DNA of 20,382 nucleotides from JBMFOH01 sp049969715 [NCBI: bacterium] (lineage in GTDB: Bacteria > DUMJ01), in contig JBMFOH010000031.1 of the NCBI GenBank assembly GCA_049969715.1, forward strand, positions 1-20,382, read 5' to 3'. Below are positions 8,575 to 20,236 of this stretch, one piece after another; position 1 is the stretch's first letter, and each line of letters opens with the position of its first letter. The translations under genes were made by a program, and so were the position numbers. The notes below the pieces were generated by a model. That model saw nothing but the letters and a program-made list of their open reading frames with translations, did not search any database and was not told the origin of the DNA.

Positions 8575-9605
8575 GTGGATAAAGTGAGGAAAAGTCTACT
8601 GGTATTATTTGTTTTGGTGTGCTGCATCCTTATCTCGAGTGTACCTGCATTGGCAGGTTATAATCACGCCGAACAAGAACAGTATGGCAATGGTGATTAT
8701 GTAAGCATCGAACAGGATGGTAATTGGAATTCTGCATATCAATGGCAAGATTATTACAATCAAACTAATGGAGGGAATAATATCTCTAACATCTATCAGC
8801 GAGGGGATCAAAATACTGCTAGCCAGGTTCAAGAAGGTACAAACAATCAGACTTCTATTACTCAGATCGGTAACAACAACTATGCTGGAAATGTAGATTG
8901 GGCAGGACAATGGCAATCTGGCGATTCATATGGGACAAGTTGGACTAACATGGCAATTGGAACTCTGCCTCTATATATCAGGAGGGCAATACTAATAGAG
9001 CTAGTCAGACAACTATTGGTGATTATAATCAGGCATATATCACTCAAATAGGGAATAATAATGACGCTGGCTTCGTTGGAGACTCTGAATTATGGCCAGG
9101 TAATTGGGTGTTTAATGCTGGATAAAGACAGTTTGGCGATTCAAACTATGCTTCTATCTATCAAAACGGATCATACAATAGAGCGGTACAACGCCAGAAT
9201 ACATTTACTTCACCTGGCAATGGCAATACCGCTATTATTACTCAGTATAGAACAAACTCTGGTGGACCTTGGAGTCAACTTGTAGCTGCCGGACAAAAAC
9301 AATACGGTAATTACAACTACGCCTCCATCTATCAAAACGGATATGAAAACTACGCTTACTCTGAGCAGAGAGGAAACGGAGATACAGTTAGCCAATCTCA
9401 GACTGGTGACTATAATTATAGCTCCGTGATCCAAACTAGTGACTACAATAAAACTAATGTTACTCAAGCCATCGGCTATAATCATAGCGTTGTAACTCAA
9501 ACTGGAAATTATAACAATGCAATTGTTAATCAGACTACTAACAATAATTATAGCTCTGTATCACAGAGCGGAAATTGGAACACGGCAGTAGTCAACCAAA
9601 ATTAA
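8575..9605 (+). pseudogene. Curlin-repeat (CsgA/CsgB-like) amyloid subunit gene, disrupted
   Basis: Two open pieces in different frames encode one secreted amyloid-type protein of about 343 residues. It starts at GTG 8575 with a signal peptide (KSLLVLFVLVCCILISSVPALA). More than 20 imperfect 11-residue units of the form Q-x-G-x-x-N-x-[AS] follow, as in curli subunits. Frame is lost after ACT 8944-8946: restoring one base (ACT-[C]AA-CAT-GGC) gives back the conserved Gln and the repeat HGNWNSASIYQEGNTNRA. A second lesion is TAA at 9123-9125 in GGA-TAA-AGA-CAG-TTT; the parallel repeat later in the gene reads GGA-CAA-AAA-CAA-TAC, so CAA became TAA. The last repeats run to TAA 9603-9605. Without correction only about 123 residues of true protein plus a wrong-frame tail to 9051 would be made. 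It precedes csgF and csgG. Sequencing error could explain one lesion but hardly both. Confidence 0.8.
8700..9600 (+). repeat. Tandem curlin repeats (about 33-bp period)
   Basis: The DNA encodes serial 11-codon units such as QDGNWNSAYQW, QIGNNNYAGNV, QNGSYNRAVQR, QTGDYNYSSVI and QSGNWNTAVVN. Two stretches are near-duplicates: QFGDSNYASIYQNG (from about 9132) and QYGNYNYASIYQNG (from about 9300), showing growth by segmental duplication. Such repeats are prone to slippage. Confidence 0.7.
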
Positions 9606-9728: not shown

Positions 9729-10160
9729 ATGAAAGTAAAGATAATTTCAGCAATTATAACCCTTTCAATGCTCTTTTGTTATAATGTTCTAAGCCCTGCA
9801 GGAGTGGTTACAATCTGGGACTTTGAACTCTACAATAAGCCTTATACAGAGCAGATAGCCTTAAGTATTATTCAAACCCAAAAAAGCCTAGGGGAGGAAA
9901 CAAAATCATATCTAAATCAGGACCCTATGGAAATGTTTAAGGATATGATTACTCGTCAAATACTCTCTAGATTAGCGCAGATGGTAATAAATGATGCGTT
10001 CGGTGAGGGGGGACTCCAACCAGGACAATATACCATTGGGAATTATACAATTGACATCTCTACTGACGAGGTATTTATTACTGTTGTCATTACTGACACG
10101 CAAACAGGCAATATAACAACCATACAGGTCCCTTATTATAATTATACTAGTATTCAATAA
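9729..10160 (+). CDS. csgF: Curli assembly protein CsgF
   Basis: The 143-residue protein has a signal peptide (residues 1 to about 24) and the CsgF layout. A helical middle, FKDMITRQILSRLAQMVIND, corresponds to the FTQAIQSQILGGLL region of the enterobacterial protein. It is followed by PGQYTIGNYTIDIS and a C-terminal strand, VVITDTQTGNITTIQVP, matching NVTDRKTGQTSTIQV. CsgF sits at the mouth of the CsgG pore and couples subunit export to fibre nucleation. The N-terminal NPxFGGNP motif that contacts CsgG in proteobacteria was not found, so the contact may differ. AAGGAGGT lies 5 bases before the ATG. It follows the broken curlin gene by 123 bases and precedes csgG by 26. Confidence 0.8.
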   Translation: MKVKIISAIITLSMLFCYNVLSPAGVVTIWDFELYNKPYTEQIALSIIQTQKSLGEETKSYLNQDPMEMFKDMITRQILSRLAQMVINDAFGEGGLQPGQYTIGNYTIDISTDEVFITVVITDTQTGNITTIQVPYYNYTSIQ

Positions 10161-10186: not shown

Positions 10187-10933
10187 ATAAGTACTGCAAT
10201 TGTTATAATTGAATTTCTAGTAATCCTTTCTCTTCTTACAAATCCTACGCCTCAAGCATTAGAAGAAAATATGATACTCTCTCAATCTAATGAGACTACC
10301 GCTACCAAACTTTTAATGTCGCTCCCAGAGCCAAAGGAGAAGATTCCGATAGCAGTGTATGAGGTCTTAGATAAAACTGGCCAATTTAAAGAGGACAATA
10401 ATATAGGTAATTCTCGCATAGTAACTCAGGGTGCAACGGAAATGCTAATAACAGCCTTAGTAAGATCGCACCAATTTGCTGTATTAGATAGGGTTCAATT
10501 CCAACATATACTTAATGAGCAGAATTTAAGATTACAGAATCGTCTTTCTCCTGGTGAAGCAGCTAAAGTAGGGGTTCTTACTGGCGCGAAGTATATCATT
10601 GAAGGCGCAATCACTGAATATAATGTAGATATGGTCATTGAAGGACTTGGATTAAAGATTACTGGCATTGGTGCCTCTGGAAAGAATGCTAAGGCGAGCT
10701 GTGCTATTGACCTAAGGCTAACTGATACTACTAGTGGAGAGGTAATATGGGCTAAATCTTTCAAGAAAGAGATATTAGGACAGAGAATTGGATTAACGGC
10801 ATTTACATTTATGGGAACGAGTATAGTAGAGTTTGAAACTGGGCAGGGAAGACAAGAGGTAATAAACCTTGTAGTCCGTACTCTATTAGAAGAAGCTGTT
10901 TATGAACTATGTAAAGATATCCTCATACATTAA
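10187..10933 (+). CDS. csgG: Curli secretion channel CsgG, start codon apparently ATA
   Basis: CsgG forms the outer-membrane pore that exports curli subunits. Matches include IPIAVYEVLDKTGQFK (compare FVSVYNIQDETGQFK), SATAML-like GATEMLITAL, FAVLDRVQFQHILNEQ, AKYIIEGAITEYN, and the long C-terminal block ending TLLEEAVYEL. The first in-frame ATG (10271) lacks a ribosome site and would remove the signal sequence. The frame is open upstream to 10151. It encodes STAIVIIEFLVILSLLTN, a hydrophobic export signal, directly after ATA 10187, which is 6 bases from AGGAGGA (10174-10180). No ATG, GTG, TTG or CTG lies in that stretch. So either ATA initiates, or an ATG has mutated. An ATA/ATT overlapping the csgF stop (10157-10162) is a less likely start. 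No lipobox Cys is visible, unlike the E. coli lipoprotein. Confidence 0.75.
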   Translation: MSTAIVIIEFLVILSLLTNPTPQALEENMILSQSNETTATKLLMSLPEPKEKIPIAVYEVLDKTGQFKEDNNIGNSRIVTQGATEMLITALVRSHQFAVLDRVQFQHILNEQNLRLQNRLSPGEAAKVGVLTGAKYIIEGAITEYNVDMVIEGLGLKITGIGASGKNAKASCAIDLRLTDTTSGEVIWAKSFKKEILGQRIGLTAFTFMGTSIVEFETGQGRQEVINLVVRTLLEEAVYELCKDILIH

Positions 10934-14401: not shown

Positions 14402-14426
14402 AGAAGGACCCAAAAAGGGTCCTTCT
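14402..14426. terminator. Shared terminator of convergent GH172 and GH127 operons
   Basis: AGAAGGACCC (14402-14411) and GGGTCCTTCT (14417-14426) form a perfect 10-bp stem with a five-A loop (five T on the other strand). It lies in the 32-base gap between two convergent stop codons, and the GH127 stop overlaps the stem. It should stop transcripts from both sides, though T-runs are short. Confidence 0.75.
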
Positions 14427-16278
14427 ATCTTGCCTTTATCCACACCTCCATAGGACCAGGGGTCCTATTAGCCCAAGCAAAATATGGAATTGCAATAAAT
14501 TCTACCTCTTTTCTTAAAGAATCTGCCTCCTCTTTTGCCAAATAGAGGTCTTTCCAAGATAGTGGGTCATTTACATATCCCTTTCCCTTTATTACAACTA
14601 TCCCACCAAGTATATCTCTATACTCTTGGCTAAGTTTTACATCTTTCGGTATCTCTAGATTCCAGACATCACCCCAAGGATTGTCCGCACCTTCCACACA
14701 GTAGATAATTGGTCCTCTTCTTATTGCAACCCTTCCTACATTATCTTTGATATTTGGATGACTCTCCAAAAGCTCAAGCTTCATAGATAGATTTAAAGTT
14801 ACAGTATCTCCCCTTTGCCATCTTCTATTTATTGAAATGTATCCCTTTTCTAAAGTTGGTTCAATCTCTTCTCCGTTTATACTTACAGAGAATTCTTTAC
14901 TCCATACTGGTTTTCTTAAAAAGATAGTAAACTGAGAGTCTGCATCTATCTTAAACTCTATCTCTCCATTCCAAGGATAATCTGTCCTTTCTTCTAACAC
15001 TATCTTAGAGCCATTAATATCAAACTCAGATTTATTGCTGGCATAAAGATTTACCCAGATCCCTTCAGGAGATGTTGAGTACATATAACCAGGAATAGAA
15101 GTTATAGTTCTAGCTATATTAGGTGGACAACAGGCACAGGCAAACCATCTCTGTCTTCTATGAGAACCTCTATCTGCTAAAGGATTTACATAAAAGTACT
15201 CCTTTCCATCTATTGAGATTCCAGATAGAATTCCGTTATAGAGACAAAGCTCCATTATATCAGCAAATCTACCTTCACCTGATACTAAAAGCATTCTATA
15301 GTTCCACATAAAGTTTGCTATAGTAGCACAGGTCTCGGCATAGGCTGTCTCGTTTGGAAGCTCATAGTTCTCTCCAAAAGCCTCTCCCTCATGCCTTGCC
15401 CCTGCACCTCCAGTAACATACATCTTTTTATCTACTAGACTATTCCAGAGTCTTTCTAATGCATATAATAGAGTTTTATCTCCTGTCTCCATATACAGGT
15501 CTGTAGCACCACTATTTAGATACAGAGACCTTACTGCATGACCAACAATTTCATCTAGCTCTCTAAATGGTTTATGGTCTATATGATAAGAACTTCCACC
15601 AATAACCCCTTTTCCCCTTTCATCTATAAAGAACCTAGCTAGGTCTAGATACTTCTTATCGTTTGTCTCTCTATAGAGTTCTACAAGAGCCATCTCTATC
15701 TCAGGATGTCCAGGAGTTCCTTCTCTCTTATCTGGACCAAATACTCTTGCTATATGGTCTGCCAATTTTATTGCTATATTTAAAAAGTTTGTCTTCCCTG
15801 TCGCCCTATGATGGGCAATAGCAGATTGAATGAGATGACCTGCACAATAGAGTTCATGCATATCTTTTAAGTTAGTCCAACGGTCCTGTTTTCTAGAAAA
15901 TGTAAAGTATGTATCCAGATATCCGTCTTCATCCTGAGCTAGCCTTATCTCTTCTATTACATCATCTACGAGCTTATCTAATTTTTCATTCTTATTAGAA
16001 GCTAGAAAATATGATACTGCCTCTATCCACTTATAAACATCAGAGTCATTAAAGAAAAAGCCAACAAATTCTCCAGAGAGCTTTCCAGCAGCAATTCTAA
16101 AGTTATTCAATCTTCCAGTTTCTTCCATAATCTGATACTGTAGAGGCAGGGTCGTTTCGCCTATAAGCCTTACCCTCTTTGCCCAGAAGTTATCAGTAAG
16201 CTCTACTGAGCTTATAGGGACAGACTTTAAGCTAGAATATTTACTTCTACTAGTGTCAACTACATAGGTCTTAGACAT
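14425..16278 (-). CDS. GH127 beta-L-arabinofuranosidase
   Basis: The 617-residue protein (formerly DUF1680) removes beta-L-arabinofuranosyl units. The catalytic set of the studied enzyme HypBA1 is present with matching spacing. E299 (in HEGEAFGEN) corresponds to the acid/base Glu322. E315 and C317 (AYAETC) and C383-C384 (in ACACCPPNIARTI) correspond to the Zn ligands Glu338, Cys340, Cys417 and Cys418, with C383 as the cysteine nucleophile. An (alpha/alpha)6 barrel occupies roughly 30-440, followed by beta-sandwich domains. No signal peptide, so it works on imported sugar. The family includes other specificities (related GH146, some acidic sugars). AAGGAGGAG lies about 5 bases before the ATG. 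Last gene of the GntR-headed operon. Confidence 0.88.
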   Translation of the reverse strand: MSKTYVVDTSRSKYSSLKSVPISSVELTDNFWAKRVRLIGETTLPLQYQIMEETGRLNNFRIAAGKLSGEFVGFFFNDSDVYKWIEAVSYFLASNKNEKLDKLVDDVIEEIRLAQDEDGYLDTYFTFSRKQDRWTNLKDMHELYCAGHLIQSAIAHHRATGKTNFLNIAIKLADHIARVFGPDKREGTPGHPEIEMALVELYRETNDKKYLDLARFFIDERGKGVIGGSSYHIDHKPFRELDEIVGHAVRSLYLNSGATDLYMETGDKTLLYALERLWNSLVDKKMYVTGGAGARHEGEAFGENYELPNETAYAETCATIANFMWNYRMLLVSGEGRFADIMELCLYNGILSGISIDGKEYFYVNPLADRGSHRRQRWFACACCPPNIARTITSIPGYMYSTSPEGIWVNLYASNKSEFDINGSKIVLEERTDYPWNGEIEFKIDADSQFTIFLRKPVWSKEFSVSINGEEIEPTLEKGYISINRRWQRGDTVTLNLSMKLELLESHPNIKDNVGRVAIRRGPIIYCVEGADNPWGDVWNLEIPKDVKLSQEYRDILGGIVVIKGKGYVNDPLSWKDLYLAKEEADSLRKEVEFIAIPYFAWANRTPGPMEVWIKAR

Positions 16279-16298: not shown

Positions 16299-17144
16299 TT
16301 ATCCTTTCAAACCAGTTAATGTAATACCCTGGATAAAATATCTCTGTCCTATAAAGAAGACTACTATTACCGGAAGCAATATTACAACAGAGGCAGCCAT
16401 AAGGTAATGCCACTGGGCGACATACATACTCCTAAAAACTGAAAGACCTATGGCAAGTGTATATTTATCCGGGTCACTAAGGTATATAATTGGTCCTAAC
16501 AAGTCATTCCATACACCTATAAAATTAAATATCGCTACAGTTATAACCGCTGGTTTAGAGAGAGGCACTACTATGCTCCAGAGAACCTTCAGAGGATTAG
16601 CTCCATCCATATAAGCCGCTTCATCTAATTCATAAGGAATCGTAAGGAAAAATTGCCTTAAGAGAAATATATTAAACATCCCTCCCCCAAACCATGCAGG
16701 GACAGTTAGAGGGTAAAAGGTATTTAATCCTCCCAATATCTTCCAAAGTATAAAGGTTGGAATAAGAGTAACTGCATATGGAAGCATCAATGATGTTAAT
16801 AAAATAGCAAAAATAAAATCTCTTCCTGGCCACCTTAATCTAGCAAAACTATATGCACATATAATGGATGTTGCTACAACTCCGGATTCATTAAATATAA
16901 GTATCTTTAGAGTATTTATGAAATATTTTAAGAAAGGAGCAGCTGTTAGAGCCTCAACATAATTCTGCCATCTAAAAGGTTTTGGAATCCATTCTGGAGG
17001 TATTATAAAAATTTGTCCTAGTTCCATAAATGAACTTCTAAGAAGCCATACAAATGGCAGCATAAATACTGCTGAACCTAAAATAAGGAATATATATGTT
17101 AAAGTCCTAGTAATCTTTGTCGAAACAGTTTTACCAAGCTTCAT
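16299..17144 (-). CDS. ABC sugar permease, MalG type (second system)
   Basis: The 281-residue inner-membrane protein has six membrane segments, an EAA loop EAAYMDGANPLKVLWSIVVP and a C-terminus QGITLTGLKG. It pairs with the MalF-type protein encoded immediately upstream. The best ribosome site, AAGGAGGT, overlaps the end of that gene and is about 13 bases from the ATG, longer than ideal. An in-frame stop just before the ATG rules out a longer form. GH127 follows by about 20 bases. Confidence 0.92.
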   Translation of the reverse strand: MKLGKTVSTKITRTLTYIFLILGSAVFMLPFVWLLRSSFMELGQIFIIPPEWIPKPFRWQNYVEALTAAPFLKYFINTLKILIFNESGVVATSIICAYSFARLRWPGRDFIFAILLTSLMLPYAVTLIPTFILWKILGGLNTFYPLTVPAWFGGGMFNIFLLRQFFLTIPYELDEAAYMDGANPLKVLWSIVVPLSKPAVITVAIFNFIGVWNDLLGPIIYLSDPDKYTLAIGLSVFRSMYVAQWHYLMAASVVILLPVIVVFFIGQRYFIQGITLTGLKG

Positions 17145-17155
17145 TTAATATGCTT

Positions 17156-18058
17156 TTACCTCCTTCTTGCACTCTCATAATAGACCCAATAAGGAGAAGA
17201 CCTAAAGACTACAAGGGTAAACGCAAGTATTATAAAGAAGAGTATTACAGCAAGGGCACAGGCATATCCCATCTGTCCGTATCTAAACGCGGAAAGGTAT
17301 ATATAATATACGTAGAACATACTGGCATAATTTGGGCCACCATCAGTCATTATATAGGCACTAGTAAAGACTTGAAAAGCACCTATAATTGCCATCACAA
17401 GATTAAAAAATATAGTTGGAGTCATCATGGGAATAGTCACATATCTAAATCTATGCCACCAACTTCCACCATCAATCTCTACTGCCTCATAAAGCTCTTG
17501 AGGAACTCCTTGAAGTCCTGCTAGGAATATCACCATTGTTCCTCCCATCCCCCATATACTCATAAAGATAAGAGCAGGCACAACTTGTTTTTCATCATAT
17601 ATCCATTGAAGCTTAGGGATTCCAAATATGCCTAGAGCTTGATTAAGAAGTCCAAAATCTGGGTTAAAAAGCCAGATCCAGAGCATTGCACTAGCAATAG
17701 TGGGGGTAATAGATGGGAGATAAAAGATTGTCCTAAAAACTGGCAATCCTCTTACCTTTTGGTTTAATAATATAGCTACTAAGAATGCGGCTATTATCGT
17801 TAGAAATACACTTCCTAATGAATAGTAGACAGTAGCATATATTGATTTTTTAAATATAAAATCATTAAAAAGAATCTTTTTAAAATTCCCTGCACCAATA
17901 AACTTAGGGGTTGTTACTACGCCCCAATCAGTAAAACCTAAGACAAAACTTGCTATCATAGGTCCCAATATCCAGATGAGAAAACCAAGGATAGCAGGAA
18001 GTGCTAATATTATTCCCCATTTAGCTTCATTATTATAAAGATATGTCCTTTTAGCCAT
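17156..18058 (-). CDS. ABC sugar permease, MalF type (second system)
   Basis: The 300-residue protein has a CUT1 N-terminus (GIILALPAILGFLIWILGPMIASF), six membrane segments and an EAA loop EAVEIDGGSWWHRFRYVTIP. I take ATG 18058, seven bases after AAGGT; a GTG nine bases further upstream overlaps that ribosome site. A strong hairpin (18085-18116) separates it from the binding-protein gene. No ATP-binding subunit gene is present, so a shared MsmX/MalK-type ATPase elsewhere is likely. Confidence 0.92.
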   Translation of the reverse strand: MAKRTYLYNNEAKWGIILALPAILGFLIWILGPMIASFVLGFTDWGVVTTPKFIGAGNFKKILFNDFIFKKSIYATVYYSLGSVFLTIIAAFLVAILLNQKVRGLPVFRTIFYLPSITPTIASAMLWIWLFNPDFGLLNQALGIFGIPKLQWIYDEKQVVPALIFMSIWGMGGTMVIFLAGLQGVPQELYEAVEIDGGSWWHRFRYVTIPMMTPTIFFNLVMAIIGAFQVFTSAYIMTDGGPNYASMFYVYYIYLSAFRYGQMGYACALAVILFFIILAFTLVVFRSSPYWVYYESARRR

Positions 18059-18084
18059 TCTTCTCACCTTTTATAATCTGTTAA

Positions 18085-18119: not shown

Positions 18120-19484
18120 TTACTTATCATATCTTCCTGTTAATAAGGGCTTTATCTTTGTAGCTATATTATCACAAGCTGTTTTAGCAGAGACTTTACC
18201 TAGCCACACATTGGAAAGCTCTTGATACATAATATCTGATATCTGGTTCCAATTCCTAAGATAATAGCTTGGACTCCTTCTTCCATACTTTAATAGATAA
18301 TCTATTACTGCAGGTTTATATTCTTTTGGATGAACTTCTGGGTCTAGCCATTTCTCTAAGTACTTAGGATCTGTATACCACCATTTTTGTAATGGCATCC
18401 ATAATCCACCTCTTACAAGTGAAATGACCTTTTCACTATTTGTAGTCCACTTATAAAATTCCCATGCCTCTTTGAGATGTTCCTTGGCTGACACAGTAAA
18501 CATAACATTAGGAGCTCCAAGTTCTAGACAGACAGGCTTCTTAAGTTTTGGAAGTGGGGCAACCCCAAGTTTGATTCTTCCTTCTTTTGCCATCTGCCCT
18601 AGATCTAAGAGAGCCCATTGTCCATCTATGTACATTGCTACTTTCTTGGTCTGTAAGGCTATTCTAAGGGCAGGAAACGCCTGCATCTGGGTAGGACTAG
18701 GAGCGACATGATATTTAAGTATTAAGTCAACTAGTTTTTGGATAGCTTCAACAGAAGCAGGGTGATTAATCAAAGGCTTTTTCCCTTCAGAGTTACATAT
18801 ATCTCCACCATTAGACCATATAAAGGGAAGTATAGGACCCCACCATGTACCAAAAGCAACACCATAGGTGTCAATGTTACTTGGGTCAAATCCAGAATCT
18901 CCTGGATGCTTGCCATTCCTATCTACAGTCAGTTTTATTGCTGTATCAAGGAACTTATCCCATGTCCAAGCATCAGGATTTGAGGAAGGGTAGGGGATAC
19001 CTGCTTTGTCAAAGATCTCTTTGTTGTACCAAAGGACCATTACTTCTGCTGCAAGGTTTGTACCGATAGTCTTCTTACCTTTATCATACCAGTACCAAGT
19101 CATAGAAAGCCTATTCTCTACCTTTACTGATGGGTCCTTATCTTCCTTTATCAATGGGAGAATATCCATTAGAACACCCTTTTCTGCCCACTCTAAAGAG
19201 AGCCCTTCACCAAGCTGTGCTACATGTGGCGGTTCACCTGCAGCCACCATTGCATTTATCTTCTCATCGTAGTTTGAAGGGATGTAAATATCTTTGACCT
19301 TAATACCAGGGAAGATATCCTGATATGCTTTCTCAAAGTCTCTACACATTTTGGCTTGAGCATCTCGCTCTAACTGGCTACCCCAATAGGTATAGATAAG
19401 TTCTACGGGAGCAGTAAAAGCAGACACTGTCATACCTAAAATCAGGACTACACTTAAGAAAACCACCCATAAAGACTTCTTTAT
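18120..19484 (-). CDS. Periplasmic sugar-binding protein (second system), start apparently ATA
   Basis: The 454-residue family 1 binding protein has ELIYTYWGS at the mature N-terminus, VAAGEPPHVAQLGEG, WTWDKFLDTAIKLT and MYIDGQWALLDLG. It is large for the class and has no lipobox Cys. The first GTG (19466) would give a signal peptide without positive charge, 24 bases from the ribosome site. Reading further upstream, AAAAGGAGG (19500-19492), seven bases, then ATA-AAG-AAG (19484-19476) yields KKSLWVVFLSVVLILGMTVSA, a textbook signal peptide. ATG, GTG and TTG are all absent at that point. ATA is therefore the likely initiator, or a mutated ATG. It follows the GntR gene by about 30 bases. Confidence 0.85.
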   Translation of the reverse strand: MKKSLWVVFLSVVLILGMTVSAFTAPVELIYTYWGSQLERDAQAKMCRDFEKAYQDIFPGIKVKDIYIPSNYDEKINAMVAAGEPPHVAQLGEGLSLEWAEKGVLMDILPLIKEDKDPSVKVENRLSMTWYWYDKGKKTIGTNLAAEVMVLWYNKEIFDKAGIPYPSSNPDAWTWDKFLDTAIKLTVDRNGKHPGDSGFDPSNIDTYGVAFGTWWGPILPFIWSNGGDICNSEGKKPLINHPASVEAIQKLVDLILKYHVAPSPTQMQAFPALRIALQTKKVAMYIDGQWALLDLGQMAKEGRIKLGVAPLPKLKKPVCLELGAPNVMFTVSAKEHLKEAWEFYKWTTNSEKVISLVRGGLWMPLQKWWYTDPKYLEKWLDPEVHPKEYKPAVIDYLLKYGRRSPSYYLRNWNQISDIMYQELSNVWLGKVSAKTACDNIATKIKPLLTGRYDK

Positions 19485-19513
19485 TTTCCAGCCTCCTTTT
19501 ATTTTTGTAGAAT

Positions 19514-20236
19514 TTAAAAATGATTTCTTCCCCCATTCCTCAGCATACTATTATCCCTCTTTACCTCATCCTCGAGCATATCTAGCAATTTATCTATAAC
19601 AGAATGTGCCCTTTTGATATCCCTATCTTTTATCCCCTTAAAGAGTTCTCTATGGAAAGAGTAAGTTTTGTCTGCGAAAGAAGGACATTCAAAAGGGTCT
19701 TCCCAGAAGAGGTGAAACTCCCTTAGCCCATCTAGAATATCAAATAAGAACTTGTTCCCTGCCGAACGATAGATTATACTGTGAAATGCCCAGTTTTCTT
19801 CCCTGCTCTCATCTCCTCTCCTTAATTTTTCTTCAAGAAGATTTACCCTCCTTTCTAACTCCTTTATCTCTTCATCAGTAAGATTCCTAATAGCCTCTTC
19901 TACAGCAAACTTCTCTAATACTCTTCTTATCTTAAGGATCTCTAGGATCTTACTCTTTTCTTGGTTGATATGGAGAATCAGATAAGACATATCATTCTTT
20001 AAAGGAACCTTAATAAAGATTCCTCTCCCAGCTAGGACTTCAATAAGATTTAAGCTCTCCATTTTCCTTAAGGCTTCCCTTAAGAGGGGACGACTTACCT
20101 TGAGTGCACTAGATAACTCTCTTTCAGATGGAAGCCTATCCCCAACTTTCAAATTATTAGAAGAGGCATATTCTACTATAGCTTCTATTATGTTTTCTGT
20201 TAACTTTACTCTATTAATCGGTCTCATAATACCCAT
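19514..20236 (-). CDS. GntR regulator, FadR/FCD subfamily
   Basis: The 240-residue protein has a winged helix N-domain (VGDRLPSERELSSALKVSRPLLREALRKME, about residues 31-60) and a helical FCD ligand domain with FHSIIYRSAGNKFL and FHRELFKGIKDRDIKRAHSVID. The usual metal-binding D-x-x-F-H is N-x-x-F-H here, and the last His appears replaced by Asp, so effector binding may differ from metal-dependent relatives. It should control the downstream uptake and GH127 genes, and its own promoter, through the operator just before its start. ATG 20236 is used; a second ATG three codons in is possible, and neither has a strong ribosome site. Confidence 0.87.
   Translation of the reverse strand: MGIMRPINRVKLTENIIEAIVEYASSNNLKVGDRLPSERELSSALKVSRPLLREALRKMESLNLIEVLAGRGIFIKVPLKNDMSYLILHINQEKSKILEILKIRRVLEKFAVEEAIRNLTDEEIKELERRVNLLEEKLRRGDESREENWAFHSIIYRSAGNKFLFDILDGLREFHLFWEDPFECPSFADKTYSFHRELFKGIKDRDIKRAHSVIDKLLDMLEDEVKRDNSMLRNGGRNHF

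Follow-up and report, generated by a model that had tools for sequence, protein, structure and literature searches.

AUA start codons are a known, rare kind of translation start, and a measurement of all 64 start codons was reportedly made by Hecht in 2017. In S. aureus, the AUA starts of infC, ccpN, and citZ were mapped by retapamulin ribosome profiling; in poor medium, reporters with the AUA codons of ccpN and citZ reached about 10% of what AUG gave, the ccpN value rising to as much as 30% in rich medium, and the AUA of citZ is restricted to strains of the NCTC 8325 lineage (PMC13009471, in the portions concerning these genes). The near-cognate start of infC and the accompanying autocontrol by IF3 are mentioned in the same portions (PMC13009471). 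For Streptomyces sigR, it was shown experimentally that a GTC start is under IF3 repression, as described in the relevant part of PMC5472188. Switches of start codons to GUG or UUG among prokaryotes, with a stronger Shine-Dalgarno sequence as compensation, were also described (PMC5622118, in part).

The locus considered here is the start region of a sugar-binding protein gene, lying in the window, i.e., the whole stretch of DNA that was analysed (20,382 bases; Table 1). Its start position holds ATA. We consider it probable that the start codon changed from ATG to ATA in the lineage of the window and that the gene, which is intact, is still translated from AUA at low efficiency.

Table 1. Coordinates of the features discussed, with strand and basis of assignment.
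Feature	Position	Strand	Basis
Shine-Dalgarno AAAAGGAGG of the sugar-binding protein gene	19500-19492	minus	sequence
ATA, start position of the sugar-binding protein gene	19484-19482	minus	sequence and orthologue alignment
ABC transporter sugar (solute)-binding protein gene, 454 codons from ATA	18120..19484	minus	Pfam and orthologues
Next in-frame canonical codon, GTG (codon 7); a start there loses KKSLW	19464..19466	minus	sequence
Two open genes, presumably for permeases, following on this strand; identity to relatives 86-89%	16299..18067	minus	
Large enzyme gene, ATG start, 77-79% identical to G001-G003	14425..16278	minus	
GntR/FCD regulator gene, upstream; stop 29 bases ahead of ATA	19514..20236	minus	
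csgG-like gene; GGGAGGAGG precedes ATA; no basic residues in the N-terminus ISTAIVIIEFLVILSLLT	10187..10933	plus	sequence
Curlin-repeat gene, broken	8575..9605	plus	curlin repeats in each of three pieces
csgF-like gene, ATG start, open, between the curlin gene and csgG	9729..10160	plus	
Four-tRNA cluster (Arg-His-Arg-Pro)	1222-1543	minus	

The start region and its orthologues

A preliminary description of this DNA proposed a Shine-Dalgarno sequence followed, after 7 bases, by ATA and a signal peptide, and the minus strand reads so at 19500-19482. The spacer between AAAAGGAGG and ATA is CTGGAAA, and ATA is followed by AAG AAG TCT TTA TGG. The signal peptide, IKKSLWVVFLSVVLILGMTVSA, was recognized by eye from its pair of lysines, its hydrophobic stretch, and the small residues of the cleavage site. 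The open reading frame matches the Pfam families SBP_bac_1 (2.2e-29; 103.9 bits vs a curated cut-off of 26) and SBP_bac_8 (2.4e-22). On the 5' side of ATA the frame stays open for 21 codons up to a stop, and there is no ATG, GTG, or TTG among them; on the 3' side the first canonical codons in frame are the GTG at codon 7 (19466) and then an ATG at codon 18. This bears out the earlier statement that canonical codons are missing near the ATA in frame and that a start at the next GTG would remove the charged n-region. Translation from one of these two downstream codons, both of which are canonical and in frame, is an alternative; however, no Shine-Dalgarno sequence was found ahead of either, and the GTG start drops KKSLW, the beginning of which is kept in relatives as (M)KKS or RKS. 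Because the Shine-Dalgarno sequence is missing and the n-region would be lost, the GTG start was rejected, and we find a downstream start hardly credible. At 19468-19470 of the minus strand, 14 bases after the first base of ATA, a base differing from relatives makes an out-of-frame ATG; it could compete for ribosomes, but it is distant from the Shine-Dalgarno sequence.

A protein search of genome_contigs with the sugar-binding protein gave 42 loci. Three of these are close, L001 (89% identity), L002 (88%), and L003 (87%), each coming from a metagenome-assembled genome; L004 and L005 follow with 58 and 56%, and all others have at most 31%. As for a copy from the same species, none above 89% identity was found in genome_contigs, none in viral_contigs, and none of at least 60% in plasmids. 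In each of the three close orthologues the codon aligned to the ATA of the window is ATG; therefore, the ATA occupies the homologous start position. The ATG is preceded by AAAAGGAGG in L001 and L002, as is the ATA in the window, and by TAAGGAGG in L003, the spacing from AAGGAGG to ATG being 8 bases in all three vs 7 in the window. The residues after the start (KKS, RKS, and RKS in L001, L002, and L003, respectively) agree with the charged n-region of the window protein. Judging by this alignment, the lineage of the window, or its sequence, departs from the relatives by one base of the start codon, and ATG is likely the ancestral state among the sequences compared. The suggestion of an ATG-to-ATA change made in the preliminary description is hence supported for the sugar-binding gene; the ATG of the three relatives speaks against AUA as an ancestral or conserved start, though not as a derived one. 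Unlike in infC (see below), the near-cognate codon at this start is not kept across species.

The more distant orthologues have ATG (L005, from G005) and CTG (L004, from G004) at the corresponding place. The CTG was considered as a parallel case and set aside. The assembly of G004 contains a binding-protein gene without a start or a signal peptide (L238, G004:C7:2248-3123) and a permease gene with an internal TGA (L200). Since the start of L238 is missing and L200 is interrupted, the near-cognate starts of G004 are doubtful, and the CTG of L004 was given little weight.

The leaders were also compared by minimum-energy folds, computed at 37 °C on isolated leaders. In the 70-base leader of the window, the Shine-Dalgarno sequence is predicted to pair with codons 7-10 (-14.2 kcal/mol, z -2.3; 3 of 200 shuffles fold as well). 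In the folds of the relatives' leaders (-9.4, -7.5, and -10.1 kcal/mol), most of the Shine-Dalgarno sequence is free in L001 and L003, and part of it is paired in L002. The placement of the window's Shine-Dalgarno sequence in a predicted hairpin argues for even weaker translation; this is suggestive, a weak further hint of lower output.

Selection on the gene and its neighbours

Downstream of the sugar-binding gene, the same strand carries two genes whose products we take to be permeases, and then the enzyme gene, presumably of family GH127. Between the window and the three close relatives, the sugar-binding gene has dN of 0.08, dS of 1.6-2.5, and dN/dS of 0.031-0.051, where dS is near saturation and dN/dS is a branch average, blind to very recent loss. 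The corresponding dN/dS values are 0.029-0.082 for the permeases, a range that includes the values of the sugar-binding gene, 0.071-0.118 for the enzyme gene, and 0.074-0.085 for the regulator. Among the relatives themselves, dN/dS of the sugar-binding gene is 0.017-0.024, about half of the window-to-relative value; the window values of the neighbours are higher too. By these ratios, the sugar-binding gene is under purifying selection, and its function was maintained by selection along most of the branch. Because of this selection, the ATA is best read as a functional AUA start of low efficiency. Elsewhere in the window, the tRNA cluster is 95-96% identical to that of the relatives, the orthologous protein genes being 69-79% identical as DNA.

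The curli cluster and its bearing on the ATA

The preliminary description treated csgG as a second, equal case of an ATA start. The presence of GGGAGGAGG and of ATA at 10187 holds, and the reading frame matches CsgG (5.5e-48), but the pairing of the two genes is weakened by the damaged curli cluster in which csgG lies. The broken curlin-repeat gene shifts frame around 8941-8948, a position located by eye, and runs into an in-frame TAA at 9123-9125. Past its ATA, csgG encodes STAIVIIEFLVILSLLT; because these residues have a glutamate within the hydrophobic stretch and no basic residue ahead of it, the signal peptide was judged by eye to be poor. For csgG no match was found in G001-G005; matches occur in 23 of 97 relatives, and the best-scoring one is 35% identical over residues 93-253 only. 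The simplest reading is that the cluster is decaying or poorly sequenced. Given the damage in the same cluster, csgG should not be pooled with the sugar-binding gene as an equal AUA start, and the cause of its ATA is probably a different one.

The lesions of the curlin gene are also relevant to the explanation that the ATA of the sugar-binding gene reflects an error of consensus or assembly, or else a variant present in a minority, and that the true codon of the species is ATG. A single base suffices for this, all three close relatives have ATG, and the frame break and the stop of the curlin gene, lying in the same window, could be errors too. However, the 11 of 19 window genes with a relative above 45% identity all align in one frame, cut only at the ends of loci or contigs; csgA, csgF, and csgG are among the 8 genes that lack such a relative in the loci compared. 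Moreover, both curlin lesions and csgG fall within one cluster, and this clustering suggests biology over evenly spread error. We regard an error as unlikely, though serious enough to be kept in mind; if it is one, the case is a warning against inferring biology from one base.

Another explanation is that the start was lost and the gene freshly silenced, so that it is an incipient pseudogene giving no useful protein. It would account for the loss of ATG with no nearby in-frame canonical substitute provided with a Shine-Dalgarno sequence, and for a Shine-Dalgarno sequence that is predicted to be paired in the window and open in two of the three relatives' minimum-energy folds; the curli genes form another damaged cluster in the same window. 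Against it stand the purifying selection over the branch and the open reading frames of the gene itself, of the permeases, and of the enzyme gene. Recent silencing appears unlikely, though it too is a serious rival, and translation from AUA at a reduced rate remains the preferred reading.

Start codons elsewhere in the clade

In infC of G001, G002, and G003 (L158, L159, and L160), the start region reads TAAGGAGGGATTGGTAA ATA AGT AAC GAR TTA AGA, with a stop immediately ahead of ATA, and ATA lies 9 bases past TAAGGAGG in all three. In the G003 copy, a canonical codon first appears 30 codons downstream, and the product matches IF3_N (1e-30) and IF3_C (1.4e-25) in Pfam. The ATA start of infC in three relatives implies that the ribosomes of the clade accept AUA there. 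An ABC permease gene of G001 and G003 (L198/L199; G001:C14:53811, minus, and G003:C115:2418, plus), 97% identical between the two, has an apparent ATT start behind AAGGAGG, 10 bases past GGAGG, and the spacer contains a short out-of-frame ATG frame. There is no close copy of it in G002, and a G004 relative of 67% identity shows TTG close to this place, plus an internal TGA. The mreC gene has an apparent CTG start in three of three relatives (L208, G002:C386:70298; L209, G001:C27:18526; L210, G003:C54:9226), MreC and the upstream MreB having been named by Pfam in the G002 copy. In each of them, the CTG and the TGA that ends the upstream gene overlap as CTGA, and no canonical in-frame codon lies between the CTG and the preceding stop. 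The CTG is an apparent near-cognate start, conserved and with apparent translational coupling; a search of the open-licence literature for mreC with a CUG start found no related report. From these sequences, a few genes of the clade (infC, the ABC permease gene, and mreC) appear to use near-cognate starts.

The possibility that AUA is a routine start codon in many genes of the lineage, one of the options of the preliminary description, was addressed by counting. The sample comprised 40 stretches of G001-G003, 763,666 of about 6.6 million bases. A codon was counted when it lay 4-9 bases past AGGAGG at the head of an open reading frame of at least 80 codons with no canonical start upstream; a non-canonical codon also had to be free of canonical starts within 3 codons. 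The first starts so found were ATG 107, TTG 7, GTG 6, ATA 4, TCA 4, TTA 3, and CCT 3, with others fewer. The four ATA cases are infC, L133 (primase-like by Pfam, with ATG five codons on), and two frames that we judged apparently spurious. A cruder count behind Shine-Dalgarno motifs in the same stretches gave 25 ATA vs a background of 32.5. The pattern AGGAGG N4-9 ATAARR has 122 matches in the three genomes vs 102 for a reversed control; of the 122, 30 matches with loci, plus those inside the sampled stretches, were inspected. By the same counting rule, the window has 2 ATA cases in its 20,382 bases vs a Poisson expectation of 0.107, with P(>=2) of 0.005, a value that takes no account of the window having been picked for its ATA pattern; the alignment of orthologues carries more weight.

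Routine use of AUA could draw on the two ATA candidates among the 19 window genes and on the conservation, in relatives, of the apparent near-cognate starts of infC, the ABC permease gene, and mreC. However, in the relatives ATA stands behind AGGAGG no more often than some codons that are not starts (4 vs 4 for TCA), with infC as the one clear gene start, and the cruder count stays below its background. Binding proteins as a class favouring weak starts were considered and rejected: G001-G005 have 72 matches to PF01547, and in 29 of the 30 inspected, an ATG, GTG, or TTG precedes the domain in frame; the exception is L238 of G004, which looks broken. For the ordinary genes of the relatives a lineage habit is thus unsupported, and we hold routine AUA initiation to be highly improbable.

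Two further surveys yielded candidates that were mostly put aside. The comparison of orthologue starts comprised 166 pairs in which both members had a Shine-Dalgarno score, and the start codon was identical in 149. It gave 13 distinct non-canonical rows, one being the ATA of the window; the other 12 were dropped by eye as mis-called starts, most having a weak Shine-Dalgarno sequence, two strong ones having GTG as the next codon, and one being an offset in the enzyme gene of the window. The sampled stretches gave 17 near-cognate rows in which the first canonical codon is the fourth or later; four were pursued (infC, the permease ATT, and two mreC CTG), L133 was scanned with Pfam, and the remaining 12 were discarded on inspection by eye.

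A proposed model of initiation at AUA

The following mechanism builds on what is generally known of initiation in bacteria and on part of PMC13009471. The strong Shine-Dalgarno sequence, 7 bases ahead, would position the 30S subunit with AUA in the P site, and initiator fMet-tRNA would pair with its first two bases, A and U. Proofreading by IF3 would act against the third-position mismatch, so that initiation at AUA would be slower, at a fraction of the AUG rate. A real low-efficiency start, as considered in the preliminary description, would fit both the purifying selection on the gene and the ATA of infC in the clade. Three points are inferred: a genuine base, use of the AUA by the cell, and a reduced output.

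An extension of this model is that AUA starts form a small IF3-sensitive set in the clade, comprising infC, and that the binding protein of the sugar operon joined it in the window lineage. We put this forward as a very doubtful idea. If it is true, the level of IF3 would set the output of the sugar-binding protein, and the predicted Shine-Dalgarno hairpin would add attenuation.

Comparison with described near-cognate starts

Gene callers restricted to ATG, GTG, and TTG would start the protein at the GTG, losing part of the signal peptide. Within the clade, infC keeps its ATA across three relatives, whereas the ATA of the sugar-binding gene occurs only in the window lineage. As one gene presumably kept low by a non-canonical start, the sugar-binding gene resembles Streptomyces sigR as partly described in PMC5472188, although there the codon is GTC and the gene is regulatory. 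It shares with the switches treated in part of PMC5622118 the loss of AUG at a start conserved among related genomes, with the difference that the new codon here is AUA. A compensating Shine-Dalgarno sequence was not seen in the window gene, those of L001-L003 being equally strong.

The S. aureus genes come nearest. A strong, extended Shine-Dalgarno sequence is stated there for infC and ccpN (PMC13009471, in part), and that of the window gene is likewise strong. The S. aureus starts were established by profiling, with reporters in addition for ccpN and citZ (PMC13009471, same part), whereas the window start was read from DNA, in a gene for an exported binding protein of an uncultured bacterium. 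A real AUA start here would suggest that, in a bacterial clade about which little is known, a near-cognate start can be supported by a strong Shine-Dalgarno context. The gene would then also be another metabolic gene with a one-base start change, and the closest parallel is S. aureus citZ, in which AUA likewise stands for AUG in a metabolic gene of one lineage (PMC13009471, as far as its citZ data extend).
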